Source: Acidobacteria bacterium RIFCSPLOWO2_12_FULL_66_21 | GTDB taxonomy: Bacteria; Acidobacteriota; Vicinamibacteria; Vicinamibacterales; 2-12-FULL-66-21 | Assembly: GCA_001767455.1 (NCBI GenBank) | Contig: MELC01000014.1 | Coordinates: forward strand, 73,336-108,968 | DNA length: 35,633 nt | Reading direction: 5' to 3' | Shown here: positions 10,078 to 35,633 of the stretch, in pieces | How the letters are laid out: every line of letters starts with the position of its first letter | Position numbering within the stretch: position 1 is the stretch's first letter | Notes under the pieces: model-generated | Databases searched by the model: none | What the model was told of the DNA's origin: nothing | What the model saw: only the letters and a program-made list of their open reading frames with translations | Position numbers and translations under genes: made by a program

Positions 10078-10124
10078 GGATGAAGCAGAGTTTACTTCAG
10101 CGGCGGCATGTCTTAGGCTGTGCC
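10078..10124. promoter_or_regulatory. Short divergent intergenic region
   Basis: Only 47 bp separate the start codons of the two divergent transporter paralogues, if the plus-strand gene starts at 10125. A TAAACT hexamer on the minus strand (10089-10094) is the best -10 candidate, but no good -35 is seen. Promoters of both genes must overlap here or lie inside the opposite gene, so coordinated control is likely. Confidence 0.35.
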
Positions 10125-13100: not shown

Positions 13101-13787
13101 CGCGCGATCGCCGTGGCCCAAGGCGAAGCAGCGCCCGACATCGACGCTCCGGCGCCGATAGGCTTCCTCGAAGCGCTCCAGGGAACGCCCATGCCGTGCA
13201 CCGTCCGCGCCAGCGGGCGCGCCGTGACGCTCGCTCTGACGCGCAACGAGCTGTACCTGCTGCTGGCGGACAACACCGATCTCGTCCGCGGCCTGTTCGC
13301 GACGCTCGCCGATCGCCTCGACGAGGAAGCCATCGGAGGACAGGGGCGCGGCCCCGCGTCCGCGGGAGTGCCGGCGGCTCTCGGCCACGTCCTCGCGCTG
13401 CAGCGCGTGCCGCTCTTCTCGCGTGTGTCGGCGGAAGAAATGCGGCACCTGGCGGCCGTCGCCCACGCCGTCGCGATGACGCCCGGCGCGCCGCTCTTTC
13501 CCGAGTTCGATCCGCCCGCGCTGTGGCTCCTGCTGTCGGGCGAGGTCGTGCTCGAGGATTCGCGCGGCGGGACCGCCACCGTCGCGCGTGCCGGGGATAC
13601 CATTGGCGTGCTGGCGACGCTTGCCGGGCGGCCGCTCGGGCGGTCGGCGGCGGTCCGCACGGGCGGCGGCGCGCTGAAGATCGATCGAGACGACTTCTTC
13701 GACCTGCTCGGGCAGCGTCCGGACCTGCTCAGGCAGATATTCTCCGCGCTGTTCGGCGCTCGCACCGTCGAGCACGCAGTGGCGTAG
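10125..13787 (+). CDS. NTT-like transporter with HEAT repeats and two cyclic-nucleotide-binding-like domains
   Basis: A 1220-residue protein. Residues about 1-410 are a polytopic transporter domain related to the divergent neighbour, with the shared D-A-R-Q-A-K-R-L-F-G loop. HEAT-type helical repeats run from about 430 to 930. Two CNB-like domains follow, about 944-1070 and 1087-1215, each beginning with an L-x-x-L/V-P-L-F-x-x-V-S helix typical of this fold. The phosphate-binding cassette is degenerate: the second domain keeps G-R-S-A-A-V but has lost the usual Glu, and the first lacks the Arg. Ligand binding is therefore doubtful. The ATG at 10125 is chosen because the protein from there aligns with the paralogue's N-terminus; an in-frame ATG at 10080 would leave only 2 bp between the genes. 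The substrate is unknown. Confidence 0.82.
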   Translation: MLQRVLAPIVEVRKEESLTVFLMFACSFLAMTAYNTIKPLTRSKFIGDLGADNLPYVLLAAGLIIGVLMAGYTWMMARLPRRWGLPITQAGLSGVLLAFWFLFQLHAAWVSVTFFVLALIMAVLLISQFWTLANVIYDARQAKRLFGFIGGGAPLGGIAGSALAAYAPRIGSVNLILPSAAVMFACAILVAAIIWRERVSIGPSASQERRAVKATEAFDLLRSSTHLQIIALVISFAAIGAVIIEQQLNMAAEASKGAAATDAITAFLAKVGLWTSTIGFVIQVWLTSKVHKYLGIGFALMILPVSLGSTAIVILFNAVLWAPALARIFDQSLRYNIDKTTREVLFLPLTSDIKLKAKSFVDVTVDRGAKALGALLLLVLVKPWGLHLDWQHLSYASLAMTALWVFTALRARKGYLRAFRESIERRNLSPDDVALNAADLSTIEALVQELSQPEGSRVVYAIDMLESLGKGSLVTPLLLYHESPLVRERALRALEPSPDGRAAGWLPHITRMTADANPAVRAAAMAALARISQKDAATFARPLVSDPEPRIRAAAAIALAGSGAPADLDLAEATLIDLSADPSDGARAARREAAAAIRQVAEPRFHRLLIPLLYDSAPEVAAEAMETVRAAGRCDFLFVPALISLLRHRHLKATARAVLVGYGEDAIEPLAHFMRDPDEDIWIRRHIPETLARIPSQKSVGALEAALAEPDGFLRFKVIAALERLRQGHAALAFRAEAVEAAALRDGQRFFTGLSLHDNLRRGRCAADTLLVRALEQKMDRAKDRICRLLSLIYPCRDIAAARWMLQHGDPRGRASASEYLDNLLSAPLRKAVMPILEDLPIEEKVRRGNVLLRTRPRDIEETLLQLINDDDQVIAAAAIDVVRQQQRWSLGDDVEHVLAHRDVRDWYVFEAASWALAERRMPAERRRELWLEPLPAAELAERLRHLPLFASVSVDELFRMAAASRQVRHEPGAVLLQQGAVPDTTHVLLDGRAIAVAQGEAAPDIDAPAPIGFLEALQGTPMPCTVRASGRAVTLALTRNELYLLLADNTDLVRGLFATLADRLDEEAIGGQGRGPASAGVPAALGHVLALQRVPLFSRVSAEEMRHLAAVAHAVAMTPGAPLFPEFDPPALWLLLSGEVVLEDSRGGTATVARAGDTIGVLATLAGRPLGRSAAVRTGGGALKIDRDDFFDLLGQRPDLLRQIFSALFGARTVEHAVA

Positions 13788-21054: not shown

Positions 21055-22272
21055 ATGACACGCTCGATCTTCGTCGCGTGGGCTCTGGCCGTGCCCGCGA
21101 TCGTCCAGGCACAGGCCGCTCAGCCGTTGACGCTCGATCAGGTGCTGGAACTCGCCGCACGCCAGAATCCCGAGGTTCTGATCGCGCGCGCTCGTGAGAT
21201 CGAGGCCCGCGGCCGACTCACGACGGCGCGCGCGCGCCTGGCGGACAATCCGGATCTGGATCTGTTCCTCGGTTCGCGCCGGCAGTCGATTGGGGGGAGC
21301 ACACCGGAAGTTGATTTCAATGTGTTTCAGCGCATGGAGATCGCCGGTCAGCGCGGATTACGCATCGAGTCAGCGACCGCGCAGATCAGCCAGCGGTCGG
21401 CGGACATCGACATGGCCGCTCTCACGGCGCGCGCGGCCGCTGCGGCGGCTTTTTTTCTCGCGCTCCACGCGGATCGGTCGCGCGAGGTCGCGGGACAGGC
21501 CGAACAGCTGGCGGGCGATCTCGGGAACGCGGCCAGGGCCCGGTTCGAAGCCGGCGAGACGGCCGTCCTCGATGTGAATCTCGCCCGCGTCGAGCAAGCG
21601 CGCGCGAAGCGGGATCGCTTGTCGGCTGAAGGGCTTCTCGAGCGAGCCTGCGGAGAACTTCGCGAGATCCTGGCGTTGCCGCCCGAGTCGGCCGTCGCCG
21701 TGAAGGGCGACTGGCCTGGCGCCGCGCCACCGCCGCTCGATGCGCTCCTGTCGCGCATCGCCGACCGCCCCGACGTCCGCTCGCTGACGGCCGGGGTTAC
21801 TGAGGCAGATGCGGAATGGCGGCTCACGCGGGCGATGCGTCGTCCGGACTTGGTCGCCGGTGTCGGCCTGCGACGCGAGGGCGGTGAGCCTGTTGCCGGC
21901 GCTCACGTCGGATTCTCAATTCCGTTGTTCCAGCGGAATGTCGGTGTCCTGGCCTCTGCGGCGGCTCGGATCGACGCCGCCCGTGTCTCACTCGACGCGC
22001 GGCGCCGCGCACTCGACACGCGCATTCGCAGCGCGCACAAGCAGTACACGATGGCACTTGAAGCGCTGAACGCGCTGACCTCCGGCGGCCTGCCACTCAT
22101 CGAGGAAAACGAGCAGCTCGCCCGCGAAAGTTATCAGGCCGGAAAGCTCAATCTGGTCGATCTCCTGGTGATTCGGCGCGAAGGCTTTGCCGCGCGTCGC
22201 GAAACGCTGGACGCCCAGCTCAGCGTCGCATTGGCAGCGACCGAGCTCCGGCTGGCCGCCGGCACGTTCTGA
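21055..22272 (+). CDS. TolC-family outer-membrane efflux protein (CusC/CzcC type)
   Basis: A 405-residue protein with a signal peptide (residues about 1-20, ending Q-A-Q-A-A). Two long amphipathic coiled-coil repeats dominate, as in outer-membrane efflux proteins: A-L/V-E-L-A-A-R-Q-N-P-E-V at the start of the first, and a second copy with S-Y-Q-A-G-K-L-N-L-V-D-L-L near residues 358-372, the standard repeat-end motif. As a trimer it would form the outer-membrane channel of the RND complex. A strong AGGAGG lies 3 bases before the ATG. The stop at 22272 is 15 bp before the adaptor start. Confidence 0.9.
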   Translation: MTRSIFVAWALAVPAIVQAQAAQPLTLDQVLELAARQNPEVLIARAREIEARGRLTTARARLADNPDLDLFLGSRRQSIGGSTPEVDFNVFQRMEIAGQRGLRIESATAQISQRSADIDMAALTARAAAAAAFFLALHADRSREVAGQAEQLAGDLGNAARARFEAGETAVLDVNLARVEQARAKRDRLSAEGLLERACGELREILALPPESAVAVKGDWPGAAPPPLDALLSRIADRPDVRSLTAGVTEADAEWRLTRAMRRPDLVAGVGLRREGGEPVAGAHVGFSIPLFQRNVGVLASAAARIDAARVSLDARRRALDTRIRSAHKQYTMALEALNALTSGGLPLIEENEQLARESYQAGKLNLVDLLVIRREGFAARRETLDAQLSVALAATELRLAAGTF

Positions 22273-22287
22273 TTGAGAGCAACGCTC

Positions 22288-23523
22288 ATGATTCATGTGA
22301 CTGCAACGTGGTTCACAAAGCCGGCAGCCGTGGCCGTGATCCTGTTCATCGCGCTGGCGGTCGGCTGCGGGCGCGGGAAATCATCGACGGCAGGCGCCCC
22401 GCCTGACGCGCGCGTCCCTGGCGACACTCGCGAGCCTGCCGCAGTGGAGAAGGACGCGGAAGCGTCCATCGTTCGCTTGTCCGACGCCGCACGCCAGCGC
22501 GCGACGATCGCCGAGATCACGGTCCTGCCGCGACCGGCGAGCGACGTCCTGTCGGCGCCGGCTGAACTGCAGTTGAACGGAGACCGAGTGGCGATGGTTG
22601 GACCTCGAGTGGCCGGCCGCGTCGCTCGGATTGCCGTGTCGATGGGCGATCGCGTCGATGCTGGAACGGTCCTGGCGAGCATCGACAGTCCCGACGTTGG
22701 CAGCCTTCTCGCGTCGTACGCCAGCGCGCAAGCCGCGGAGTCTGTCGCGCAACGCACCTATCAGCGTGAGAAAGACCTTTTCGCCCGCCGCATTTCCGCG
22801 GAGCGCGAAGTCTTCGCGGCGGAGGCGGAGCTCGCACGGGCGACATCCGAGCGACGCACGGTGGAGAGCCGCCTGCAAGCGCTCGACGTTGCTCTGCCCC
22901 GAGCCGGTTCGTCCAGTCCGGCATCCGCGCTGCTGCCGATCCGCTCGCCCATTCAGGGCACGGTCATCGAACGCAACGCGGCGATCGGCGCCCCGGTCGG
23001 ACCGGACGCCGTGTTATTCACACTCGCTGACCTCTCGACACTGTGGCTGGTCGCCAGAGTGTCGGAGACGACGATGCGGGATATCAGGCGTGGCGATACG
23101 GTGACGGTCACCCTCGACGCCTTGCCCGATCAGCGCGTCTCCGGTCGCGTGTCGTACATCGGCGCCACCGTCTCGGACACGACGCGAACCGTTGACGTGC
23201 GGATTGATGTTCCGAACAGGACGGGCCAACTCAAGCCGGGGATGTTCGCTCGCGCGCAGTTGGCAACCCGCGGTGCGCGCACCGGGCCGTCGAATCAACT
23301 CCTGATTCCGCAGATCGCCGTGCAGGAGCTCAATCGCAGGCGTGTCGTATTCGTCCCTCGCAGCGATGGCGGATTCGATGTCCGCGAGGTGACCGTCGGC
23401 GCGAGCGTCGGCGACGACATCGAAGTCCTCTCGGGGCTCAAAGCGGGGGAAGCCGTCGTGACCACCGGCAGCTTCACCCTCAAGTCTCAAGCGGTTCGAG
23501 GCGGGGCCGGGGAGTCTCAGTAG
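22288..23523 (+). CDS. RND efflux periplasmic adaptor, probable lipoprotein
   Basis: A 411-residue membrane-fusion protein. The N-terminal hydrophobic segment ends L-A-V-G-C, a lipobox, so the mature protein is probably lipid-anchored. The barrel-sandwich halves appear around V-A-M-V-G-P-R-V-A-G-R-V and the second lipoyl half near P-I-Q-G-T-V-I-E-R-N-A-A-I-G-A-P-V, separated by a coiled-coil hairpin. It connects the inner-membrane pump with the TolC-type channel. ATG 22288 is preferred over an upstream TTG at 22273 because GAGAG lies 8 bases before it. No N-terminal His/Met-rich metal-binding extension like that of CusB is visible. Confidence 0.88.
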   Translation: MIHVTATWFTKPAAVAVILFIALAVGCGRGKSSTAGAPPDARVPGDTREPAAVEKDAEASIVRLSDAARQRATIAEITVLPRPASDVLSAPAELQLNGDRVAMVGPRVAGRVARIAVSMGDRVDAGTVLASIDSPDVGSLLASYASAQAAESVAQRTYQREKDLFARRISAEREVFAAEAELARATSERRTVESRLQALDVALPRAGSSSPASALLPIRSPIQGTVIERNAAIGAPVGPDAVLFTLADLSTLWLVARVSETTMRDIRRGDTVTVTLDALPDQRVSGRVSYIGATVSDTTRTVDVRIDVPNRTGQLKPGMFARAQLATRGARTGPSNQLLIPQIAVQELNRRRVVFVPRSDGGFDVREVTVGASVGDDIEVLSGLKAGEAVVTTGSFTLKSQAVRGGAGESQ

Positions 23524-23525
23524 CC

Positions 23526-26500
23526 ATGCTGAGTCATCTGATTTCGTCGTCGTTTCGAAATCGTCTTCTGGTGCTCCTGTTGACGATCCTCGGGGCCGGA
23601 CTCGGTGTGCTCTCGTATTCGCGGCTGTCGACCGATGTCTTTCCGGATTTGACGGTGCCGGTGTTCAACGTCATCACGCAAAACGCGTCGATGGCGCCCG
23701 AGGAGCTGGAACTGTCCGTGACACTTCCGGTTGAGAGCGCGTTGAATGGACTGCCGGGCGTGCGCCGCATCCGATCGACGACGCAGCTTGGCGTGTCGCA
23801 GGTGACCGTGGAGTTCGACAGCGAGATGGACTATTGGCGGGCGCGCCAGCTCGTGTCGGAACGCCTCGCCCAGGTGCTCCCGCAGTTGCCGGCGGGGACC
23901 AGGGCGCCGCTGGTGTCGAGTCTGACCAACCGGCTCAACGAGGTGTACGAGTATCTCGTGGAGGGGGACGTCGATCCGATGGCCCTGCGCGACGTGGCGG
24001 AGTTCGATCTGCGCTATCGGATCCTCGCGGTGCCGGGCGTCGCGAGCGTAGAGCGGCTCGGCGGACGCCTGCGCCAGTTTCAGGTGCAGCTCGATCCGAT
24101 CCGGATGCAGGCCCTTGGTGTGGGGCTCGACCAGGTGCTGCAGGCGGTGCGGGAGAGCAACGAGAACGCGCCCGGTGGCTTCGTCTCGACCGGCGCCACG
24201 GAGTTTACCGTCCGGAGCCTGGGTCGAATCCGGTCGATCGACGATCTCCGCCGTTCGGTGGTCGTTGTCCGGCAGAACGCGCCCGTCACGCTCGGCGACG
24301 TGGCCCGTGTCGTAGAGGGATCGGCGGTGCAGCGCGGACTCGCCCACGCGGCGGGCCGTGACGTGGTGAGCTCGCGGGTGATCAAACAGTTCGGGAGCGA
24401 CACGATTACCGTGACCCGCGCGGTTCGGGCGGCCCTCGACGAAGCGCAGAAGACGTTGCCGCCAGGGGTTCGGATTCGATCGGTGTACGACCAATCCGAA
24501 TTGATCGACCACGCCCTCACCAGCGTCCAGCGCGCAATCGTCATCGGAGCGGTGCTCGTGGTGATCGTGCTGCTCCTGCTGCTCGGTGATGTGCGTTCGG
24601 CAGTGATCGTCACGGTGACTCTGCCCACCTCCGTGATGCTGGCGGGGATGGTCATGTACTGGTTCGGGGCCGGCATCAACACCATGACGCTGGGCGGGTT
24701 GGCGATCGCGGTCGGTATTCTGGTCGACGCCGCGATCATCATGACCGAGAACATCCACCACCGGCTGTCGACTGCTGAGGGCGACCTCGAGCGCGTTGTG
24801 CTCCCGGCTGCCATCGAGGTGGGCCGGCCAATTGCGTTCGCCACGCTCATCATCATGGCGGTCTTTCTTCCGCTCCTGCTGATGACGGGAATCGAGGGCC
24901 GGCTGTATCGTCCGCTTGCGCTGACGGTCGTGTCGGCCATGGGCGCATCGCTGGTGTTGTCGCTGACGCTCGTGCCGGCGCTCTGCGCGTGGTTTCTGAA
25001 GCCGGCGAGGGGAGATTCGGACGTCGTGGTGATCCGGGCGGTCAAGCGCCTGTACGTTCCGGCGCTCGACTGGGCGTTCCGTCACGCCGGACTGGTGCGG
25101 GCCCTGGCGCTCGGGGTCACGATTCCCGCGTTCGTCGGTTTCTATTCTGTGGGCACGGAGTTCATGCCGGAGCTCGATGAGGGGGCGTTCCTCGTGCAAA
25201 CGGTGTTGCCGCCGGAGGCGTCCCTCGGCGAAGTGGACCGGGTGAACACGCAGGTCGAGGATGTGCTCGCCAGGTCGGACGGTGTCGCGTTCGTGTCGCG
25301 GCGATCGGGCCGGTCGGAAGAGACCGAGGACCCGATGCCGCATACGCTGAGCGACGTGCTCGTCGCGCTCGCGCCCCCGTCGGAGCGCGAGAGCTCCGAG
25401 GCGGTGGAGACCAGGCTGCGGGCCGCGCTCGAGGACGTGCCTGGCGTGGTGGCGCTCTTCACGACACCGCTCGGCATGCGGATCGACGAAGGACTTGGAG
25501 GCACCGTCGCCCAGGTCAGTGTGCGCGTGTTCGGGCCGGACCTCGACGTCCTGGAGGCCAAAGCCCAGGAAATCGCGAGCATCGCGCGGTCGGTTGACGG
25601 CTTGACCGACCTGCGTGTCGAGAGCGCCAGCGGCGTTCCGCAACTGCAATTGTCGATCGATCGCGACGCCGCATCCCGCCAGGGAGTCACGGCGGGAGAG
25701 CTTGCCGAAGCGATTCGGGTCGCGATTGGCGGCGAGGTCGTCTCTGAGTTCTGGCAGGGCCAGCGCAACTACGGCATTCTCGTCCGCGCGGGCGAGCCGT
25801 TTCGCAGCGGACCGGCCGCGATCGAGCGGCTGCCGCTGACACTGCCGTCCGGCATGGTGGCACCGATTGGACGGTTCGCCCGTGCGGAGATGACGTCGAG
25901 CCCCAGCGTCATTCGGCGGGAACATGTCACCAGGCGAATCGCCGTGGAAGGCAGTGTGGAAGGACGGGATCTCGGGTCCGCTGTTTCAGAGCTGCGGGAC
26001 AAGATCGCCAAATCAGTGACGTTGCCGAGCAACTACTACGTCGACTTTGGCGGTCAATACGAGCAGCAGCAGCGCGCGCTCGGTTCGCTGACTGTCGCGG
26101 TTGCGATCGCAGTCGGCCTCGTGTTCGTCCTGCTGTTCATGGCCCTCGGCTCGATGGCCGAAGTGTTCGTCATTCTGCTGACGCTCCCGGACGCCTTCGT
26201 CGGAGGCATTCTCGCGTTGATACTGGCGCGACAGACGCTGAATGTGTCATCCGCCGTCGGCTTCATCGGGCTGTTCGGCATCGCGGTGCAGAATGGGCTC
26301 GTCTTGATCGCGCAGACCCGAACGCTGGTGGCTGAAGGACTGCCCTTCGCCGAAGCGTTGCGGGCGGCGAGCATCGGGCGCGTCAGGCCGAAGCTGATGA
26401 CCGCTGGATGCGCGATGCTCGGGTTGACGCCGCTCGTGCTCTCGCGTGCCCAGGGAGGGGAGCTCGAGCGGCCGCTCGCGATTGTCATGATCGGCGGATT

Positions 26501-26591
26501 GGTCACCTCGACGCTGTTCACGCTGCTGGCCTTGCCGACATTCTATTCGCTGGTCGCGCACCTCACGGCGAGATGGCGGCGTACTGGCTGA
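23526..26591 (+). CDS. Heavy-metal-type RND efflux pump (CusA/CzcA family)
   Basis: A 1021-residue inner-membrane proton antiporter with the RND layout of twelve transmembrane helices and two large periplasmic loops. TM4 contains D401 and E408-N409 in V-D-A-A-I-I-M-T-E-N, the proton relay. The residue three before this motif is G in A-V-G rather than D in D-F-G, closer to the CusA pattern than to CzcA; monovalent metal export (Cu/Ag) is therefore favoured, but only weakly. Another family mark is T-E-F-M-P-E-L-D-E-G-A-F in the second periplasmic loop. Length is slightly short of CusA. The start is 2 bp after the adaptor stop, and the two must be translated in tandem. The gene ends convergent to the mod gene. 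Confidence 0.9.
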   Translation: MLSHLISSSFRNRLLVLLLTILGAGLGVLSYSRLSTDVFPDLTVPVFNVITQNASMAPEELELSVTLPVESALNGLPGVRRIRSTTQLGVSQVTVEFDSEMDYWRARQLVSERLAQVLPQLPAGTRAPLVSSLTNRLNEVYEYLVEGDVDPMALRDVAEFDLRYRILAVPGVASVERLGGRLRQFQVQLDPIRMQALGVGLDQVLQAVRESNENAPGGFVSTGATEFTVRSLGRIRSIDDLRRSVVVVRQNAPVTLGDVARVVEGSAVQRGLAHAAGRDVVSSRVIKQFGSDTITVTRAVRAALDEAQKTLPPGVRIRSVYDQSELIDHALTSVQRAIVIGAVLVVIVLLLLLGDVRSAVIVTVTLPTSVMLAGMVMYWFGAGINTMTLGGLAIAVGILVDAAIIMTENIHHRLSTAEGDLERVVLPAAIEVGRPIAFATLIIMAVFLPLLLMTGIEGRLYRPLALTVVSAMGASLVLSLTLVPALCAWFLKPARGDSDVVVIRAVKRLYVPALDWAFRHAGLVRALALGVTIPAFVGFYSVGTEFMPELDEGAFLVQTVLPPEASLGEVDRVNTQVEDVLARSDGVAFVSRRSGRSEETEDPMPHTLSDVLVALAPPSERESSEAVETRLRAALEDVPGVVALFTTPLGMRIDEGLGGTVAQVSVRVFGPDLDVLEAKAQEIASIARSVDGLTDLRVESASGVPQLQLSIDRDAASRQGVTAGELAEAIRVAIGGEVVSEFWQGQRNYGILVRAGEPFRSGPAAIERLPLTLPSGMVAPIGRFARAEMTSSPSVIRREHVTRRIAVEGSVEGRDLGSAVSELRDKIAKSVTLPSNYYVDFGGQYEQQQRALGSLTVAVAIAVGLVFVLLFMALGSMAEVFVILLTLPDAFVGGILALILARQTLNVSSAVGFIGLFGIAVQNGLVLIAQTRTLVAEGLPFAEALRAASIGRVRPKLMTAGCAMLGLTPLVLSRAQGGELERPLAIVMIGGLVTSTLFTLLALPTFYSLVAHLTARWRRTG

Positions 26592-26676
26592 CCCTCATCC
26601 CCGCGACGGCCTGGGCGCCTGGTCACAAGGACAACACGTCGCTGATCCGGCGTGGCAAGGTCGGACGGGAAGGCAG

Positions 26677-29307
26677 CTACACGTCGAACACTTTGAGCAC
26701 TTCGTCGCCGTAGTGGTTGATCACCTTGACGGCGATGCGGCCCTGGTCGGGCGCCGCGAACGGGCGGCTGCGGGTGCTGTAGAGCGTGGACCAGGTGCCC
26801 TCGTCGATCTCCGCACGGAGCGCGCGCTTGAGCTTCTCGTACGGCTCGTCGGCGCCGGTGAAGTACGCGTGGCGGACGAAGAAGCTCTCGCCGTTGTAGT
26901 TGGTGTCGATGAACCAGCAGGCGATGTCGTCGGTCGAGCTGCTCCGGATCTGCCCCGTCGTCGGATCGTAGACGTCGAGGCCGTTGATCTGGACGACGAC
27001 GTTGCCGTCGGTGTCGCGCTCGACGTCGACGTCCGGCTCGCCAAAGACGGTGAAGAGGTTCCCGGCGCCGGTCTTCTTCAGCAGCTCGTCCCCCATCGCG
27101 AGGTCGGGGTTCATCCGCGTTGGGAGGACGGTCAGCTTACCGTAGCGCTTCACTTCCTCGTTGACGTGCGGGTCGAACGCAAAGCCGCAGACGACGAGCA
27201 GGTCGAAGCCGACCCCCTGGACAGCTTCCTTCGCCGCTTCCTGGACGAGCGTCGGTCCGACGGTCCCGTGCTCGGGACCGATCGCGATCGCGGCCCGGCG
27301 CGCCTTCCCGTCGGCGTCGGTGTATGCGCCCGCGGCATTGATCCACTTGCCCGCGAACGGCTCGATGCGGTCGAAGACCAGGCGTTCCTTCTTTTTCGTG
27401 TTCTGGACACCCGCCTTCAGCAGATTGCCGAGGATCATCGCCTCGAACTGCCCAGCCGCCGAGTCCCGCTCCCCTTCCTGCTCGGAAACCGGCCGCTCCG
27501 TGTCGGTTGACAGCACGCGGTGCGGTGACAGGCTCTCGACGGTGAACGGACCGGTGACGCGGATGCGCTTGGGGTCCTCGTACGGTTTGTCGTACAGCGT
27601 CTCGGTTTCCGCGTGACGCGCGATCGCGGCGTCGATCTCCTCGCGCGTCATGCCTTCTGTGATGTCGGGGTTGTTCGCGATCGACTTCAGGGTGACGTGC
27701 GGCACACGCTTGTACACGAACCCGCGCCGGATGTCGTTGTCGGTCTTGTGGTCGGGCGGGATCTTGCCGGTGATCTCGGCCTCTTTACGGACGCCTTCGG
27801 GCGAATCGGCCAGCAGGTAGTACGGGTACTTCGCGGCCATCAACCGCGTCCGCGCGAGCGCCAGCGCCACGCGGCTCGTGTCGATCGTGATCCAGCGGCG
27901 GCCCCACTGCTCCGCGACGAACGCGGTGGTCCCGGAGCCGCACGTGGGGTCCAGCACGAGGTCGCCCGGGTCGGTAGTCATGAGCAAGGCACGGGTAATC
28001 ACTTTCACGTTTGTCTGTACGACGTACGTTTTCTCCCTGGCGTCAAAGCCCCACTTCGTGTCTTGCCAGATGTTTCCGATCGCAGCGACCGGAAAATCCT
28101 GCAGCAGTCGGATGTACGAGAGCGATTCCGCCCTCGGCAGCAGTCTTCCTGCGACACGCAACTTAGCCAGGCCTTCAACTGTTGTTTTCCAGTTGGCGCC
28201 GGCACCGGGATGGTAGACCTTGCCGTGAAATTCAAACGGCACTGTCGTATTAGTTCTGAAACCCTGAGACGTCAACGGACTCGGCCGGAAAGGCTGCCAA
28301 CCCTCGGGAATCCGCGTCGAATTCTGCAGCTCGGCGGAAGTCAGTACGCGTCGCTCTCCCGAATTGCTGATCGCTTGTGAATACTCTTCAGCGAGTTCAT
28401 CGCCCAGCCCTTTGTCGAAGTACATCTGCCGATACTTGACGACGGCCCGATCCTTCGCGAACCACACTAAATAATCCGATGTCCCGGTAATCAACTCGGA
28501 AGTCTGGCTGCTGGCTTTGAGAAAAGCGATGTTCGCGCAGAAATTCTCGCTCCCGAACACCTCGTCCAGCACGCACCGCACGAGGTGCACGTTCTCGTCG
28601 CCGATCTGCACGAAGATCGAGCCGCTTTCGGTCAGCAGCTCGCGTGCAGCGGTGAGGCGGTCGCGCAGGTACGCCAGGTACGAGTGGATCCCGAGCTTCC
28701 ACGTGTCGCGGAACGCGCGGATCTGTTCGGGCTGGCGCGTGGCGTCTTCGACCTTGCCGTCCTTGACGTCGCGCTTGCGGGTTGAGACCTGCCAGTTCGA
28801 GCCGAACTTGATGCCGTAGGGCGGGTCGAAGTAGATCGTCTGGACCTTCCCCTTCAGCCCCTCCTTCTCCGCGAGCGACGTCATCACCAGCAGCGAGTCC
28901 CCGAGGATCATCCGGTTCGACCAGTGCTGGTCGTGGTGGTAGAAGTCCACCTTCTGCTCGAAGTCGCTGACGCCGTTGAAGTCGTCGAAGAGCGTCAGCT
29001 CCGGCTCCCTCTCGCCGGCCTTGGCCGTCTCGCGCAGCAGCTCGACGAGCGCCTGCGGGTGGATCTTCTCCTGGATGTAGATCGGGACGGCCGGTATCTC
29101 GAGCGGTTTCGCGTCCTGCTCGTCCTTCCCCTTCCACACGAGCTGCGGGTCGAGCGACGGATCGCGCGGATAGAGGACTCCGGGCGGCCGCGCCTCTTCG
29201 ACGGCCACGAACCCGCGCAGCTCCTGCGTCGGGATGTTCGTGCGCGCATCCTTGTGCTTGATCGACTCGACCGGCACCGGCCCGGACGGCTTCTGTTTTT
29301 TCGCCAT
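26677..29307 (-). CDS. mod: Type III restriction-modification DNA methyltransferase (Mod)
   Basis: An 876-residue beta-class N6-adenine/N4-cytosine methyltransferase. The catalytic D-P-P-Y is at 161-164 and the AdoMet motif D-P-T-C-G-S-G-T at 453-460; this order and the wide gap between them mark a beta-class enzyme with the target-recognition region between. Type III Mod proteins methylate one strand of an asymmetric site and pair with a Res helicase-nuclease, here the gene at the right edge. The C-terminal part (about 600-876) has no motif I recognise. Its start codon overlaps the ATPase stop by one base (TAATG). Residues about 260-435 are encoded by clearly lower-GC DNA than the rest, indicating a swapped recognition region. 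Confidence 0.88.
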   Translation of the reverse strand: MAKKQKPSGPVPVESIKHKDARTNIPTQELRGFVAVEEARPPGVLYPRDPSLDPQLVWKGKDEQDAKPLEIPAVPIYIQEKIHPQALVELLRETAKAGEREPELTLFDDFNGVSDFEQKVDFYHHDQHWSNRMILGDSLLVMTSLAEKEGLKGKVQTIYFDPPYGIKFGSNWQVSTRKRDVKDGKVEDATRQPEQIRAFRDTWKLGIHSYLAYLRDRLTAARELLTESGSIFVQIGDENVHLVRCVLDEVFGSENFCANIAFLKASSQTSELITGTSDYLVWFAKDRAVVKYRQMYFDKGLGDELAEEYSQAISNSGERRVLTSAELQNSTRIPEGWQPFRPSPLTSQGFRTNTTVPFEFHGKVYHPGAGANWKTTVEGLAKLRVAGRLLPRAESLSYIRLLQDFPVAAIGNIWQDTKWGFDAREKTYVVQTNVKVITRALLMTTDPGDLVLDPTCGSGTTAFVAEQWGRRWITIDTSRVALALARTRLMAAKYPYYLLADSPEGVRKEAEITGKIPPDHKTDNDIRRGFVYKRVPHVTLKSIANNPDITEGMTREEIDAAIARHAETETLYDKPYEDPKRIRVTGPFTVESLSPHRVLSTDTERPVSEQEGERDSAAGQFEAMILGNLLKAGVQNTKKKERLVFDRIEPFAGKWINAAGAYTDADGKARRAAIAIGPEHGTVGPTLVQEAAKEAVQGVGFDLLVVCGFAFDPHVNEEVKRYGKLTVLPTRMNPDLAMGDELLKKTGAGNLFTVFGEPDVDVERDTDGNVVVQINGLDVYDPTTGQIRSSSTDDIACWFIDTNYNGESFFVRHAYFTGADEPYEKLKRALRAEIDEGTWSTLYSTRSRPFAAPDQGRIAVKVINHYGDEVLKVFDV

Positions 29308-30530
29308 TACGGCACGGCCAACCTGAAGGCAGAAACGGCGTCGTTCACGAACTGCCTAAGGCCAGGCTCCGCACGGCCGGCCCGGTAGAAATCGATACTT
29401 TCAGCAAATGGCTCGACGACGGTCTTGCTCGCCTTGCGCTTGACGTTCAGCAACGCCGACACGCCAGGCGACTCACGCTCCAGGCGGATCACAGCGTCAC
29501 AAAGAAGAGGCGAATGCGTCGTGACGATCACTTGCCTGTCGCCGGTCTGCGCCAGCGAGAAGAGCAGTTGGGCGATCAGCTCAATGCGTCTAGGATGAAC
29601 GCCGTTCTCGGGTTCCTCAAGGGCCAGCAAAGTGCCGCTCCATGGATTCGCGGCGATCGCACAGATCGCGAGCACGCGGAGCGTGCCTTCGGAGACAATC
29701 CTCGACGAGAACTCGGTTCCGTCCTGTCGAACCAGGATGTCCAGCGTGCCGCGTCGCTTGTCGAGATCCACGACCATGTCCTCGACGCTCGGAATGATCG
29801 AAGTCAACGTGCGGCGCACGGCAGCAAAGTGCTTGGGCTTCTCCGCGCGAAGTCGATACAGGAACGGCGCGATATCTCCTCCAAGAACCCCGATGTCCCT
29901 GACCTCAGCCGGCGGTTGCGCGACGCGCATCGCGACTCGCGGATCGAGGTAGTACGTTCTCCACGCTGACAGTTCCGCTCTCGTTAGATCTATCGCTCTA
30001 TATTCAGACCCGCCCAGTCGCAAGTCTGAGAGCATCGTGAAGTTCTGCCGGAGACTCTCGAACCGCGGCTTGCCGGAGCTCTTGCGTCGGAGGCGAATCC
30101 TGTCGTCCACGACCTCGATCGCGGGAATCCCTGAAGGCTCGTGCGATGACTTGCGTAAACGTGCCAGATACTCGTCGACCACTGACAGGGCCGCCGAAAG
30201 CGGCTCAATCTCGACGGCCAACTTGTACCGAAAAGGGTCCTGGCCGACCTCCAGTTCCGCCTCGAGGTCGAACTTGCGCGGCGGGCCCGACAGAAGTTCG
30301 GCCAATCCTCCGGAGGGAAATGAGAACGCCTCGACCGGATATCCGCGAATGGGCTCGGCGAGCGCGTCCGCAAGCGTCCGACTGGTCGCGAATCGGGAAA
30401 GCGCCTGCACTGCGTCCAGGATGTTGCTCTTGCCGGACGCGTTCGGGCCGAAGAGCACAGTCAAACGTGGAAAGTCGAGTGTCACATCGTCCAGTGACTT
30501 GAATCCCCGCACTTTCAACGTCTTCAACAT
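29307..30530 (-). CDS. AAA ATPase of the SMC/RecF-like AAA_21 group
   Basis: A 407-residue ATPase. The N-terminus M-L-K-T-L-K-V-R-G-F-K-S-L is typical of RecF/SMC-type proteins, followed by Walker A G-P-N-A-S-G-K-S-N (28-36). Walker B L-A-L-E-E-P-E-N-G-V-H-P lies near 300, and a T-T-H-S-P-L-L switch near 336-342. There is no Toprim nuclease domain, so it is not a full OLD nuclease. Proteins of this type occur in many defence operons, often as the energy module of a nuclease or partner. It overlaps the mod start by one base, so it is translationally coupled to mod, an unusual partner for Type III systems. Its role in restriction is inference. Confidence 0.85.
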   Translation of the reverse strand: MLKTLKVRGFKSLDDVTLDFPRLTVLFGPNASGKSNILDAVQALSRFATSRTLADALAEPIRGYPVEAFSFPSGGLAELLSGPPRKFDLEAELEVGQDPFRYKLAVEIEPLSAALSVVDEYLARLRKSSHEPSGIPAIEVVDDRIRLRRKSSGKPRFESLRQNFTMLSDLRLGGSEYRAIDLTRAELSAWRTYYLDPRVAMRVAQPPAEVRDIGVLGGDIAPFLYRLRAEKPKHFAAVRRTLTSIIPSVEDMVVDLDKRRGTLDILVRQDGTEFSSRIVSEGTLRVLAICAIAANPWSGTLLALEEPENGVHPRRIELIAQLLFSLAQTGDRQVIVTTHSPLLCDAVIRLERESPGVSALLNVKRKASKTVVEPFAESIDFYRAGRAEPGLRQFVNDAVSAFRLAVP

Positions 30531-30545
30531 GGTGTGCCCCTCGGG

Positions 30546-30568
30546 CTGACGGTCGAACGGTCAGTATA
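30546..30568 (-). promoter_or_regulatory. Candidate -10 and inverted repeat before the ATPase-mod pair
   Basis: On the minus strand, TATACT (30568-30563) is a good -10 in GC-rich surroundings, although no -35 is obvious. Overlapping the expected start of transcription is the inverted repeat CTGAC(9 nt)GTCAG at 30546-30564. Two further CTGACC-type words lie beside it. This would allow ATPase and mod to be expressed from their own controlled promoter, apart from the genes to the right. Confidence 0.4.
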
Positions 30569-30578
30569 TCGCTGTCGG

Positions 30579-30797
30579 TCAGCGTGCCTGGTGGATCACC
30601 GGCCGGTAGCGGGACGGCGGAATGGGCTTGCCGGCCTTTCGCGCGGCCTGCATCCACGCTTCACGTGCCTTCGCCACCTCGGCAAGCGCCTCCGCCGCGG
30701 TCGCGCCGAACGCGGAGCAGGCTTCCAGGTCGGGAATGTCGGCGATGTGGCCACCATCTTCCTCGCTGTAGAGGATGTTGATGTGGTAGTCGCTCAC
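30579..30797 (-). CDS. HicB-like antitoxin-type protein
   Basis: A 72-residue protein with the HicB fold pattern: Y-H-I-N-I-L-Y-S-E-E-D-G-G-H-I-A-D-I-P-D-L, then C-S-A-F-G-A-T-A-A-E-A-L and an amphipathic helix. HicB neutralises the HicA mRNA-cleaving toxin; no HicA gene is seen on either side, so it appears solitary. It ends at R-Y-R-P, without a C-terminal DNA-binding domain. A GTG start with GGGGGAG immediately upstream fits the family's N-terminus better than the longer in-frame ATG at 30938. It sits 48 bp before the ATPase gene. A role in controlling the R-M genes is possible but not shown. Confidence 0.75.
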   Translation of the reverse strand: MSDYHINILYSEEDGGHIADIPDLEACSAFGATAAEALAEVAKAREAWMQAARKAGKPIPPSRYRPVIHQAR

Positions 30798-30862
30798 TGC
30801 TCCCCCGGTCGCAGGTCTCCCAGTCCGGCGAGTCTCCGCGGCCGCTTCAGCGATCCCCGTAC

Positions 30863-30882
30863 AAAAAATAACCCCGCCGGGG
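30863..30882 (-). terminator. Intrinsic-terminator-like hairpin with T-run
   Basis: On the minus strand CCCC-GGC-GGGG is followed by TTATTTTTT. The stem is only 4 bp but all G-C, and the T-run is good. It would end transcripts that come from the TcmP/DUF5131 side and the res-tail relic, separating them from the HicB-ATPase-mod block. It lies 65 bp upstream of the HicB start. Confidence 0.55.
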
Positions 30883-31065
30883 CCTTTCGGCATGTCCAGC
30901 GGGGGGCAATTCCTGGATGATTCTGTCGCTCTGTTCACTGAAAGTCAAACGCTGCGGTACGCACCGTCTCGCGGCCAATGTCCCACTATTCCGGCGTGCC
31001 CCCCGTCGAATCCACCCACGGGAGCGACTTATCGTGGAGCAGTTCATCCCGCACTCGCCACGGCT

Positions 31066-31199
31066 GGCTGTTCGGCCGCCTTGATTGTCCTTTTCGCGTC
31101 TCATGGGTCGGTCACCTCGAGAATGCCCAACGGCCGAACCCGGCCGTGGTCGTTGACCGCCGGGACCCACTGCGTCCGCACCGTCCGGACCTTGGCCAT
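31066..31199 (-). pseudogene. Relic copy of the 3' end of a Type III res gene
   Basis: On the minus strand this segment aligns without gaps to the 3' end of the intact res gene about 1791 bp to the right, roughly 80 percent identical by eye. The translated tail A-K-V-R-T-V-R-T-Q-W-V-P-A-V-N-D-H-G reads in parallel with A-K-V-A-T-A-R-T-Q-W-V-P-A-V-N-N-H-G of res. The Trp of V-T-D-P-W-D-A-K-R-T-I is here a TGA stop (31101-31103), after which the homology continues (D-A-K-R-T-I-K-A-A). ATG at 31199 is preceded by AGGAG, only 2 bases away, so a 32-codon product could be made. No helicase part remains. The rest of 30883-31065 shows nothing identifiable. Confidence 0.75.
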
Positions 31200-31207
31200 G
31201 GCTCCTG

Positions 31208-31972
31208 TTACGTCCGCTGTTCGACGAGGGGGATCCGCCGACGTGGCTGACGGTCCGCGGCCACGGCGCGCGGCATTTCGTCCCACGTTCGACCGTGCAG
31301 ATCGCGGCCGGTCCGCTTCTTGAAGACACCTCCCCACTGCTTGAAGAAGAAAGCGACGCCCGCTTCCTTACACTGATCTCTGATGTCGAGCACCCAGGAA
31401 GTCTGCATCGCCCTGGCCTTGGGCCCCGACTCGCCTCCGACGATCACCCAGTCAATTCCGCGCAGGTCGAGACGACCCAGCGGGCCAAGCAGCGGCTCCA
31501 GCGACAGGAACCTCACCCGAGCGTGCGTCTGGCGCAGATGGTCAATGCGATGAAGCCATCGCGCGTTCTCCACGCTGACGCCCATCCACACGTGCTCCGG
31601 CCAATCCAGATTCGCGTCGAGCTCGAGGAGACGCTCGGAGCGCTTTGTCAGGATCTGAAACTGGTGCCAGTCGGCACGCCGCATCACGTCAAACGCATCT
31701 TGAATGAACGACAGCGGCACATCCTCGTGAAACATGTCGCTCATCGAGTTCACGAATATGCGCCTCGACCGCTTCCACCGCAGGGGCAGTTCGAGCATCG
31801 ATTCCTGCAACGTCAACTTGAAACCGTTGGCGTAGTTGCGCTGCCCCATGGCTTTCAGCCGCAGCGCCATGCGCTCAGCGTAGCAGTGGGCACACCCCGG
31901 ACTGACCTTGTCGCAGCCCGTCACCGGATTCCAGGTCGCCTCGGTCCACTCGATATGGGAACTGGTCGCCAT
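31208..31972 (-). CDS. DUF5131 / phage Gp37-Gp68 family three-Cys-motif protein
   Basis: A 254-residue protein with the defining cysteine cluster C20-x6-C27-x2-C30 in W-N-P-V-T-G-C and G-C-A-H-C-Y-A-E, followed by F-V-N-S-M-S-D-M-F and a V-G-G-E-S-G segment. The cluster resembles a metal or Fe-S site, and the family is thought to be related to radical-SAM-like proteins, but its reaction is not established. It is widespread in phages and bacterial islands. The start overlaps the stop of the TcmP-like gene by one base (TGATG), fixing the start and pointing to coupled translation. GC is clearly lower than in the flanking res gene (31 of 60 bases in 31681-31740). Confidence 0.85.
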
Positions 31973-32811
31973 CACGCAGCTCCTTTGGAGCGGTACTTGT
32001 CGAAGATCTCCCCTACGATCTTGGCCCCCTCGCGGTTCGGCGAAGCGAAATACAGGTAGTACACGACGGCGCGTTTCCTGTTGCGCATCGGAATGGGTGG
32101 TGGCACGTACGTGAACCCCGCAACGTTCTTCAGGCGCTGGCGGAACCACTCGGCGATCGCTTCGTTTGAAACCTTCTCATCGATGTCGCCGAACAATCCT
32201 GGCGTCGAACGATATGCCGCTTCCCGCCAGGATCGGTCACCGCACACAGCATCCATACGAGCGGCCTGCTCAGGTGGGACTTTGCTCGAATCCCGCATGA
32301 ACACGTTCATGTTCGCGTCCATGATCATGAAGTTGTAGAACACCTCCACGCTTTTCATGGCACCCGCTGTCCTGAGCACCTCCCAGTTGACGTTCAGCCC
32401 ATATGGATCCAGAAGACACAGAGCACGGTGGTAATCCTCGTACTTACACCTCGGAAACACGTGGTCCAAGAGGATCTCGTTGCAGTCGCCCTTATGGACG
32501 CGCACGCGCCGATCAGCCGCGCTGAGCCGCCTCAACTCCGCGGCTCTGGTTCCATCGAGGTCGATGAAATGCAGCTCGGAGAACGGAGGCGTTATTCCCA
32601 TTGCGTTCATCGGGCTGCCAGCGACCTCCTGCCCCGTCGTTTCTGAAATATGCGTTCCAGCCCCAGCGAAGGCGTCAACGTAGATGTGGCGCTTGATGAC
32701 GCCCTGTTTCGAGAGGATCGTAGAGTACGCCAAGGCGTATTTCCTGACGATCTCGAGCTTGACCTCGGACCAGTAGCCGATTTCATCGAGCCGAAGCGCC
32801 TTCTTGCCCAT
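31972..32811 (-). CDS. Three-Cys-motif partner protein (TcmP-like)
   Basis: A 279-residue protein. It starts with the pattern [13 protein letters not shown] (residues 14-26) and has Y-V-D-A-F-A-G-A-G (about 44-52) and L-D-P-Y-G-L (about 134-139), which resemble motifs I and IV of AdoMet-dependent methyltransferases. TcmP proteins are named for their regular pairing with three-Cys-motif DUF5131 proteins, as here. The function is not established; a methyltransferase-like role is inference from the motifs. AGGGA lies 4 bases before the ATG. It begins 29 bp after the res stop, so res, tcmP and DUF5131 may share a transcript. Confidence 0.85.
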
Positions 32812-32840
32812 GTTCCCTTGTACTCAATCCGTGTGACAGG

Positions 32841-35633
32841 TCAGGTCACGACCAACGCCTGAACGGCCGCAGTGATCGTCCGCTTCGCGTCCCACGGGTC
32901 GGTCACCTCGACGAACGCCCAGCGGCCGAAGCCGCCGTGGTTGTTGACCGCCGGGACCCACTGCGTCCGCGCGGTCGCGACCTTCGCCGCCTTGTCCTTC
33001 CGGTTCTCGCCGCTCACCTCGATGACGAGGTTCACGGGAACGGGCCCGTCCATGACGGCGATGAAGTCCGGGAAGTACTGCCGCTCCTCGCCGTTGAGCG
33101 TGTAGGGAATCGTGAAGTTCAGCCCCTGGTTCTTCACGTAGCGCGCCACCTCGGGCATGCTCTCGAGCGTCTGCGCGAGCTTCTGTTCCCACGATCCCGT
33201 GTCGGCGACCACGTGCGACACATGGCACTTGTCCGGCGCGGTCTCGAACACCGGCTTGGCGGTATCGAAATCCACCCAGCGCGTGCTGCCGACGACGTCA
33301 AACGGTCGCAGGATCGGTTTGAGCGAAGCGGCGCCTTCGACGCTCGCGACAATCGATCGATAGATGCGATCCGCAGCGTCGTGCGCCAGCTCCACGAGCA
33401 ACAGGAGCTGGGGGAACGTCTCGTCCTTGCACGCCAGGCACTCGGCCAGCCACCGCTTCGTGATGGCGAGCACCTGAGGGAAGACCCACCACTTCACCTC
33501 GGCGTCGAACCGGTGCTCCTTCGGGCGCTCCGGTCGATCCTCGCCGTCCTGCCTGAAGTACTTTTCGATGGTGAGTTTCGCAAGCAGGAACGCGACCTCG
33601 GACAACCGCCTCTGCCGCAGGTCGTCCAACGTATGGATGCTCGATTCGCCAACGATCGGCGCCGCTTGCGTCCACGTCGGCACGTCCGCCGTCGAAATCG
33701 CCAGCTTTGCGTCGTCGTCGAACCTCGCCTCCAGACGCTCGGTCGGGAAATCGTGTCGGTACCCGGCGAGGCGCGGAAAAGTGATCTCGAGCGCGGCGCG
33801 GTCTTCGATCGCGCGCACGCGCGTCGAGCGCGACGGCTCGATCACCCCGGCGGCGCCGGCGGTCGGAATGAACGAGAACGGCACTCCGTAGACCTCGGCG
33901 TACTCGGGGCCCAAATGCCCGGCATCATTCAACGCGAAGCTCATGCGGCGCAGTCCGCGGCCGACGACCTGCTCGCACAGGAGCTGCGTGCCGAAGGCGC
34001 GCACGCCGAGAATGTGCGTGACGGTATTGGCGTCCCAGCCCTCCGTCAGCATCGAGACCGAAACGACGCAGCGCACGTGCTCGCCGAGCTTGCCCGCCTT
34101 CCCCACGGTGTTCATGACCTCGCGCAGCAGATCTTCGTCGGTCAGCTCCTCGACGTCGCGTCCGGGGAAACGCGCGCGATATTCGGACTTGAACTCCTCG
34201 ATTTCGGCGGCGGCAATGGCCTTGAAGTCCGCGCTCATGCCTTCGCCCGACTCGAGCTGCTGGCTGTCCACGAGGATGCTGTTCGGCCGCGAGGTCCAGC
34301 GCCCGTCCTTCTCGTTGTTGAATGCCGCGAGCTTGCCGGGGGCGACGAGCGGCGTGCCGTCAGCGTGCTGCTTCCCGGTCTCGAAGCCCGCGATCCAGTC
34401 GAACACGAGCTTCGACACGTTCGTGTTGTTGCAGACAACGACGAACACCGGCGGCGTCAGGCCGCGTGCGCGGGCATCCGCGTTCTGTTCCCACGCGCGG
34501 AATGACTTCTCGTAGTGGCCATAGAGACTGTGCAATGCCCCTTCGAGTTCGGCCGGCAGCTTCGGTGGGCCGGTGACGGCGTCCGTCCTACGACTCTTTC
34601 GGGGAAGGTCCTCACGGATGCGCGGCCATAGATCGCGGTAGGTGGGCTGGTCGCCCAGCATCGCGTTATCGGCAACCGGCACCCGAGGGATCTTGACGAT
34701 GCCCGCTTCGATGGCGTCGATCAGCGAAAAGTCCGAGACCACCCAGGGGAAGAGCGTGCCCTCGGGATAGCCCGAGCCGCTCAGGAAGAACGGCGTGGCC
34801 GAGAGGTCGTAGATGGTGCGGATGCCCAGCTTCCGCTGCACGGCCTCGAGCCCGCCGCTCCAGACACGGGCATCCTCCTCGCGGCGCTTCGCCTCGGCGC
34901 GATCCTCCGCGCTCAACGTCTCGTCCTCGGCGTCCGCCTTGCGCCAGTAGCAATGGTGCGCCTCGTCGTTGATGACGACGATGTTCTTCTTGCCCGAGAG
35001 CTCGCGCGCCACGCGTCGCACCATCTGGTCCGGCGTCTCGCGGAACGCGCTTGTGTCTCCCTTTCCGAGGATCGACTTCGTCAGCTTCGCCGCCTCGCCC
35101 CGCTCGCGCAGCAGGAACCCGTGGTAATTGGTGATGACGATACGTGCCTGTGCGAGGCGTTCGAGCAGGTCCGGCGACAGGATGTCGCGCTGGCGGTAAT
35201 AGTTGTCCGGGTCGGTCGGAAGCAGCACGCGCAGGCGGTCGCGGATCGTGATGCCAGGGGAGACGACCAGAAACGCGTCGCTGAACCGCGCGTCCTGTCG
35301 GTTCTCGAACTTGTTGAGCGCCTGCCAGGCGATCAGCATCCCCATTACGACGGTCTTGCCGCTGCCGGTCGCCATCTTCATCGCGATGCGCGGGAGCCCG
35401 GCGTTGTACTCGCTGTTCCAGTCGCGCAGGTGGTTCTCGATCCACGCGTCGCCGTACCGCGCCGCGACCTCCGCGAGGTACACGGCCGTCTCCACCGCTT
35501 CGCGCTGGCAGAAGAACAGCTTCTTCTCGCGCGCCGGATCCGACCAGTACTCCAGCAGCCGCCGCGTGGTCGCCGTGATGCCGACGTATCCGCCGGTCCG
35601 CCAGGCGTCCACGCGCTCGCGGATGCGGTTGAT
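32841..35633 (-). CDS. res: Type III restriction enzyme Res subunit, 5' end cut by window edge
   Basis: At least 930 residues are present; the frame stays open to the right edge (I-N-R-I-R-E-R), so the true start is outside. Numbered from the GTG at 35612, Walker A A-T-G-S-G-K-T is at 81-87, the D-E-A-H box near 213, S-A-T-P-F-F follows, and the helicase end motif Q-V-V-G-R-G-L-R-R is in the second RecA domain. The C-terminus (about 840-920) is the nuclease-like domain with P-D-F-I and I-E-V-S-G. Res proteins use ATP to communicate between two recognition sites and cut DNA near them. The expected catalytic Lys after E-V is Ser here. Its Mod partner lies at 26677-29307, with four other genes between. 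Confidence 0.9.
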   Translation of the reverse strand: MNRIRERVDAWRTGGYVGITATTRRLLEYWSDPAREKKLFFCQREAVETAVYLAEVAARYGDAWIENHLRDWNSEYNAGLPRIAMKMATGSGKTVVMGMLIAWQALNKFENRQDARFSDAFLVVSPGITIRDRLRVLLPTDPDNYYRQRDILSPDLLERLAQARIVITNYHGFLLRERGEAAKLTKSILGKGDTSAFRETPDQMVRRVARELSGKKNIVVINDEAHHCYWRKADAEDETLSAEDRAEAKRREEDARVWSGGLEAVQRKLGIRTIYDLSATPFFLSGSGYPEGTLFPWVVSDFSLIDAIEAGIVKIPRVPVADNAMLGDQPTYRDLWPRIREDLPRKSRRTDAVTGPPKLPAELEGALHSLYGHYEKSFRAWEQNADARARGLTPPVFVVVCNNTNVSKLVFDWIAGFETGKQHADGTPLVAPGKLAAFNNEKDGRWTSRPNSILVDSQQLESGEGMSADFKAIAAAEIEEFKSEYRARFPGRDVEELTDEDLLREVMNTVGKAGKLGEHVRCVVSVSMLTEGWDANTVTHILGVRAFGTQLLCEQVVGRGLRRMSFALNDAGHLGPEYAEVYGVPFSFIPTAGAAGVIEPSRSTRVRAIEDRAALEITFPRLAGYRHDFPTERLEARFDDDAKLAISTADVPTWTQAAPIVGESSIHTLDDLRQRRLSEVAFLLAKLTIEKYFRQDGEDRPERPKEHRFDAEVKWWVFPQVLAITKRWLAECLACKDETFPQLLLLVELAHDAADRIYRSIVASVEGAASLKPILRPFDVVGSTRWVDFDTAKPVFETAPDKCHVSHVVADTGSWEQKLAQTLESMPEVARYVKNQGLNFTIPYTLNGEERQYFPDFIAVMDGPVPVNLVIEVSGENRKDKAAKVATARTQWVPAVNNHGGFGRWAFVEVTDPWDAKRTITAAVQALVVT

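Follow-up and report, generated by a model that had tools for sequence, protein, structure and literature searches.

The DNA analysed here, called the window, is a stretch of 35,633 nucleotides from Acidobacteria bacterium RIFCSPLOWO2_12_FULL_66_21 that carries a restriction-modification operon with, in order of transcription, res, TcmP, DUF5131, a HicB-like ORF that scores under the Pfam cut-off, an AAA ATPase, and mod. The mod gene (26677..29307, minus strand) encodes a DNA methyltransferase of 876 amino acids (PF01555, 3.7e-29; PADLOC MTase_III, 1.1e-280, 931.9 bits). The res gene (32841..35633, minus strand) encodes a restriction endonuclease of the BPTD_3080 family, which matches the NF046055 profile at 1102 bits against a cut-off of 800, PF04851 (ResIII) at 43 bits, and PADLOC REase_III at just 35 bits. 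The NF046055 match begins at profile position 79; because the contig stops where the window does, the N-terminus of Res is missing, and the GTG at 35612 is unlikely to be where it really starts. Judged by its sequence, Mod is a beta-class, type III-like methyltransferase and the partner of this BPTD_3080-family Res.

We found res ahead of mod in all 60 loci where both were present, with a gap between the two matches that ranges from 15 to 4117 bp. This variability points to a slot for variable cargo, which corresponds to 29308-32840 in the window. In Picosynechococcus pAQ5 the same slot holds UPF0175 and DUF3368 genes. Four alphaproteobacterial plasmid copies (L303, L304, L305, L307), which belong to a more distant mod subfamily, have the reverse order, mod then res. 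Inside the window slot, at 31073-31197, the res 3' end (32864-32988) is present a second time, as a copy of 126 bp with 86% DNA identity that is interrupted by a stop codon; the two res tails on either side of TcmP and DUF5131 are likely a recombination scar. The operon adjoins TolC-like, adaptor, and CusA/CzcA-like RND heavy-metal efflux genes (21055-26591). Elsewhere in the window, two divergent genes (7264-10077 on the minus strand and 10080-13787 on the plus strand) each contain a TLC ADP/ATP-carrier-like part and HEAT repeats, and one of them also has a cyclic-nucleotide-binding domain.

Beta-class methyltransferases are ordered as motif IV, target-recognition domain (TRD), and motif I. 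This order is found in the translated Mod: the catalytic motif IV, DPPY (aa 161-164; 28816..28827, minus strand), is invariant among 38 aligned homologues and is followed by a variable block and then by the AdoMet-binding motif I, DPTCGSGTT (aa 453-461; 27925..27951, minus strand), whose columns are invariant or nearly so in the 38 homologues. The variable block, an exchanged segment of 55% GC with a GC3 of 0.648 (aa 260-435; 28005..28530, minus strand), therefore occupies the TRD position, where the preliminary description of this DNA had placed it. The solved type III Mods 6k0w and 4zcf (EcoP15I Mod) match Mod in sequence over aa 126-309, and Foldseek retrieved both with the predicted Mod structure (E 1.7e-8 and 2.9e-8), at TM-scores of just 0.15-0.28 for what is a low-confidence model. 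This AlphaFold model has a mean pLDDT of 58.8 and a pTM of 0.32, and served only for locating the core of the TRD and for a first indication of the C-terminal fold; within the TRD it is confident over aa 301-410 (ten-residue mean pLDDT of 76-90).

The C-terminal domain of Mod (aa 612-742; 27082..27474, minus strand) has a predicted PD-(D/E)XK-nuclease-like fold. By structure comparison with the low-confidence model, it resembles NucS 2vld (Z 10.7), LlaBIII 4xqk (Z 9.3), and MspJI (Z 8.4). Inspection by eye found no clear D/ExK motif in the query. A nuclease-like domain within a Mod would be unusual. A search for phase-variation repeats over 26500-35633 gave four weak arrays alone, with scores of 30-33, and no clear tract; the seven-unit array inside mod (26992-27033) has 71% matches and 10% indels.

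The middle of mod is markedly poorer in GC than the rest of the gene. The count of 30 G or C among the 60 bases of 28201-28260, given in the preliminary description, is exact, and the sliding-window check that it suggested identified 28010-28530 (287 of 521 G/C, 55.1%) as the lowest such stretch of the window. Along the 35.6 kb, 20 of 35,112 windows of 521 bp are equally low, all with starts at 27971-28025. GC3 is 0.938 over aa 1-259, 0.648 over aa 260-435, and 0.912 over aa 436-876, and when mod was scanned blindly, the segment that deviated most in GC3 was aa 259-444 (z 9.75), a value matched by none of 200 block shuffles. Across 240 kb of the host genome, a GC3 of 0.648 or less was seen in 19 of 3725 windows of 176 codons (0.5%). 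Six of the 56 host ORFs of at least 450 codons have a within-gene GC3 drop below -0.18, three of which exceed the -0.274 of mod; all six drops lie at codon 0 and look like N-terminal stop-to-stop over-extension, not internal blocks.

To compare mod with its homologues, we assembled 110 loci (80 from genome contigs, 29 from related genomes, and the query's own) and kept 90 full-length mods in the alignment after removing duplicates and copies that were broken, cut, or short. Among the 77 homologues at least 55% identical to the query, identity measured in 20-residue bins ranges over 0.75-0.98 at aa 121-260, falls to 0.21-0.47 at aa 261-440, and returns to 0.88-0.95 at aa 441-500. Conservation through the middle is thus far from even, in line with the exchange of specificity domains proposed in the preliminary description. 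Over the 4005 pairs among the 90 mods, TRD identity is uncorrelated with flank identity (r=0.06). For example, the query and L005 share flanks at 0.93 identity and TRDs at 0.29, whereas the query and L090 have flanks at 0.55 and TRDs at 0.67 (0.57 and 0.67 with another column set). L090, which holds the TRD nearest to that of the query on a different backbone, comes from a genome (G004) of the same family. L090 also has its TRD type in common with L028, again on a different backbone (flanks 0.49, TRD 0.59; 0.55 and 0.59 with another column set). TRD identity exceeds flank identity in four of the 4005 pairs, the query/L090 pair among them. In 192 pairs whose flanks are alike but whose TRDs differ, the breakpoints cluster at aa 257 and 436.5, and their interquartile ranges define a left junction zone at aa 253-258 (28534..28551, minus strand) and a right one at aa 428-439 (27991..28026, minus strand).

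From these sequence comparisons, we consider it highly probable (roughly 0.85) that the middle of the query mod is the TRD of a type III-like Mod and has been exchanged between backbones as one cassette. Junctions in conserved codons on either side (aa ~253-258 and 428-439) would spare catalysis and AdoMet binding, and a TRD swap would then change only the methylated DNA site; homologous recombination is the presumable route. The query TRD type is also present in a different mod subfamily of the same bacterial family. A search for a close donor in 396 genomes found none, the best-scoring non-self match having 44% identity and partial matches reaching at most 46%; G004, the genome of L090, was absent from the genomes with matches. 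The query TRD had no match in the viral contigs searched, and none of 147 phage records with a mod match reaches 80% query coverage. Near full-length mods are present on three predicted viral contigs, and 37 plasmid records have at least 80% mod coverage.

The same low GC was found in nearly all relatives. Compared with its own flanks, the TRD is poorer in both GC and GC3 in 89 of 89 homologues, with a mean GC3 difference of -0.26. A further set, drawn from three viral contigs and from the phyla to which L080 (titled Bacteroidetes) and L079 (titled Oscillatoriales cyanobacterium) belong, comprised 37 loci (L243-L279), of which 35 sequences were kept (L270 is partial and L246 has no usable ORF); here TRD GC3 is under that of the flanks in 32 of 35 (mean -0.24). 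The same holds for 12 of 13 plasmid mod copies, a set retained from 15 fetched loci. When the TRDs of the 125 mods in the first two sets were clustered at 50% identity, the dip was seen in 99 of 100 clusters and in 123 of 125 mods, a sample that includes the same gene twice in L079/L272 and in L248/L271, and L269 from the genome of L080. The latter count implies 33 of 35 for the further set against the 32 given above, a difference that stems from differing flank columns, the changed cases being near ties. Nearly every homologue thus has a TRD that is AT-richer than its surrounding gene, and this has the look of a general rule.

Because the dip is found in nearly all homologues, low GC is a property of TRDs as a class and neither dates nor identifies an event in the query mod. 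The preliminary description had read it as the trace of an exchange in this allele, and on this point we depart from it. The reading it implied, one recent import from an AT-rich donor, would account for a low-GC block that is sharp at the TRD, but not for the same dip in 89 of 89 full-length homologues and 32 of 35 others. In addition, the query TRD is near saturation at synonymous sites relative to its closest TRDs in L090 and L028 (4-fold identity 0.28 and 0.28, with 0.24 and 0.26 expected by chance), and these two TRDs are likewise AT-rich against their own flanks. We therefore regard a single recent import as improbable.

The GC3 residual forms a flat block of -0.26 to -0.31 over aa 261-440 and is seen in all 18 amino acids that have a third-position choice. 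A TRD that was never exchanged, and was merely fast-evolving and weakly constrained, could have become AT-rich through weak codon selection, and the TRD is indeed the longest divergent part of Mod. However, TRD positions conserved at 0.9 or more dip equally with the variable ones (-0.27, n=13), whereas variable positions outside the TRD show a small dip (-0.05, n=26). No GC3 block was found in res across 53 homologues, where 20-codon bins range from -0.053 to +0.098 and the last, which is the least conserved, is at -0.088. Together with the independence of TRD and flank identity, and the four pairs in which the TRD is the more similar part, these results make an explanation free of exchange very unlikely.

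The left edge of the GC3 dip is gradual, extending over about 30 conserved codons (aa 231-260, 28528-28617), and the right edge is much steeper. A second, smaller dip, outside the TRD, was observed at aa 501-530 of Mod (-0.10 to -0.19 at conserved positions, -0.04 to -0.11 over all positions).

The size of the dip depends on the composition of the gene. In the set of 35 mods, it is -0.37 where flank GC3 is above 0.6 (16 of 16 lower) and -0.15 where it is 0.3-0.4 (7 of 7), and it is absent below 0.3 (2 of 5 lower, mean -0.005). Since the dip shrinks with falling GC, random sampling of an average pool does not account for the TRDs. These data also bear on the idea that selection favours rare AT-ending codons in the TRD as a brake on translation that aids folding of the inserted domain, which would agree with the coincidence of the dip and a structural domain. 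Yet the TRD is still AT-richer at a flank GC3 of 0.3-0.4 and is level, not inverted, below 0.3, and in hosts with a GC3 below 0.5, where AT-ending codons are common, it is below host genes in 7 of 8. In AT-rich hosts, TRDs thus move further toward common AT-ending codons or stay level, so they are not rare-codon regions, and we give selection for slow translation hardly any credence.

We also compared the TRDs and flanks with the genes of their hosts, taken in the query genome and 43 loci as ORFs scored by amino-acid content after training on the genes of the window. In 42 of 43 loci, GC3 is lower in the TRD than in host genes (mean -0.22); in 30 of 43 it is higher in the flanks than in host genes (mean +0.06, p 4e-5). 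In 17 further genomes, limited to those with a fetched stretch and with the longest ORFs taken as host genes, the TRD is below the host in 15, and the flanks are above in 12, which is not significant (p 0.24). Scatter about the host regression is wider for TRD GC3 (SD 0.123) than for the flanks (0.073).

As TRDs are AT-richer as a class than the genes that carry them, the AT-rich block of the query follows from its membership in this class. As the cause of this composition we favour, with about as much doubt as confidence, an AT-rich, mobile exchange pool, from which TRDs would keep arriving and then adapt slowly to each host, which would maintain an AT-rich class. Such a pool with slow amelioration fits both the low TRD values and their wide scatter. 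Two Rhodococcus plasmid copies (L299 and L301) share a common TRD and have no dip, with a 4-fold identity of 0.30 for the TRD and 0.35 for the flanks, as expected under slow amelioration; L302, another copy from Rhodococcus, has the dip (0.391 versus 0.497). On the other hand, in the co-inherited pairs L102/L106 and L251/L250, the TRD stays AT-rich at a synonymous divergence comparable with that of the flanks. This is not expected under slow amelioration and is better fitted by a GC-raising force that acts on pairing flanks only.

Such a force, for example GC-biased gene conversion during homologous recombination, would reach the flanks that pair and miss a TRD that has no homologous partner. 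Several observations are consistent with it: the dip in 123 of 125 mods and 99 of 100 TRD clusters, the flank GC3 over that of host genes in 30 of 43 loci, the gradual left edge across some 30 conserved codons, and the AT-rich TRDs kept in the two co-inherited pairs. In PMC4450053, GC-biased conversion is argued for bacteria, with recombining genes higher in GC3 in 11 of 14 recombining groups. Weighing against a GC-raising force are the non-significant flank excess in the second set (12 of 17, p 0.24), the right edge of the dip, far steeper than the left, the lack of a dip in Rhodococcus L299 and L301, and the failure of a likelihood test of amelioration in its own control; on balance, we think this force somewhat unlikely to be the cause. 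The likelihood test compared amelioration with a free equilibrium in seven co-inherited pairs. Its uncalibrated result was not against amelioration for most of them, but the C-terminal flank control gave large or negative ratios in several, and we dropped the test as evidence.

Other restriction-modification families show dips of varying strength, and those of the other Mod families examined are weaker than in the family of the query. In a second Mod family, TRD and flank identity are likewise decoupled (r=0.10), and the dip is seen in 19 of 20 members (mean -0.108). It is weak in 16 mixed beta-like Mods of other families (11 of 16, mean -0.048). In 11 members of one of these families, the middle is divergent and its GC3 residuals lie between about -0.01 and -0.09; in four EcoP15I-like Mods the middle residuals are -0.03 to -0.16. 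For HsdS, comparable with an adjacent HsdM-like ORF in 13 of 30 loci taken, TRD GC3 is under that of the HsdM-like ORF in all 13 (mean -0.178). The genomes for HsdS and for the second Mod family were picked around relatives of the query genome, which makes these checks taxonomically narrow. We tentatively propose, as a possible if doubtful generalization, that exchanged TRDs are AT-richer at synonymous sites than the gene around them in all but the most AT-rich hosts, either because pairing-dependent GC-raising forces bypass them or because they come from a shared AT-rich pool.

TRD exchange and one low-GC TRD, that of modA12, are already published (PMC3311624), and the query mod adds a further example of specificity exchange; of greater weight is the composition pattern as a whole. 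A TRD GC dip read as evidence of import, as for modA12 (PMC3311624), needs a baseline, because the dip is present in nearly every homologue, including TRDs that look long resident. The literature searched, including passages of PMC2667262, yielded no general statement on TRD composition, an absence that is weak evidence. If TRDs are excluded from GC-biased conversion, each such gene would contain segments exposed to it next to one that is not. TRDs could then serve as built-in controls, within the gene itself, for measuring GC-biased gene conversion, and a question about bacterial GC content would become directly testable.

Among known systems, the closest resemblance is to modA of Neisseria and Haemophilus, a type III Mod with a variable DRD, conserved ends, and a central recognition domain exchanged en bloc. 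PMC3311624 describes transfer of modA DRDs en bloc between alleles and a GC content of the modA12 DRD significantly lower than that of the 5' and 3' regions. Unlike modA, the query mod has no clear phase-variation repeat tract, its Mod has 876 amino acids, and its Res is of the BPTD_3080 family; moreover, the GC dip here is not confined to one allele but runs through a whole family and across many phyla. The BPTD_3080 systems (NF046055) are themselves a match, as the Res partner passes the model cut-off and a BPTD_3080 Res is annotated beside a mod relative on plasmids; our literature search found no data on specificity exchange in BPTD_3080 restriction systems and did not meet the term BPTD_3080.

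The recognition domains of HsdS in type I restriction systems are known to be exchanged. HsdS resembles the query in its GC3 deficit relative to HsdM (13 of 13 loci), but differs as a separate specificity subunit with two TRDs and no comparably long conserved flanks within the gene. Rhs and CDI toxins have a GC-rich core and AT-rich variable tips, and thus a conserved body with an exchanged AT-rich module; there the module is terminal, with no flank on the far side, and the function is unrelated.
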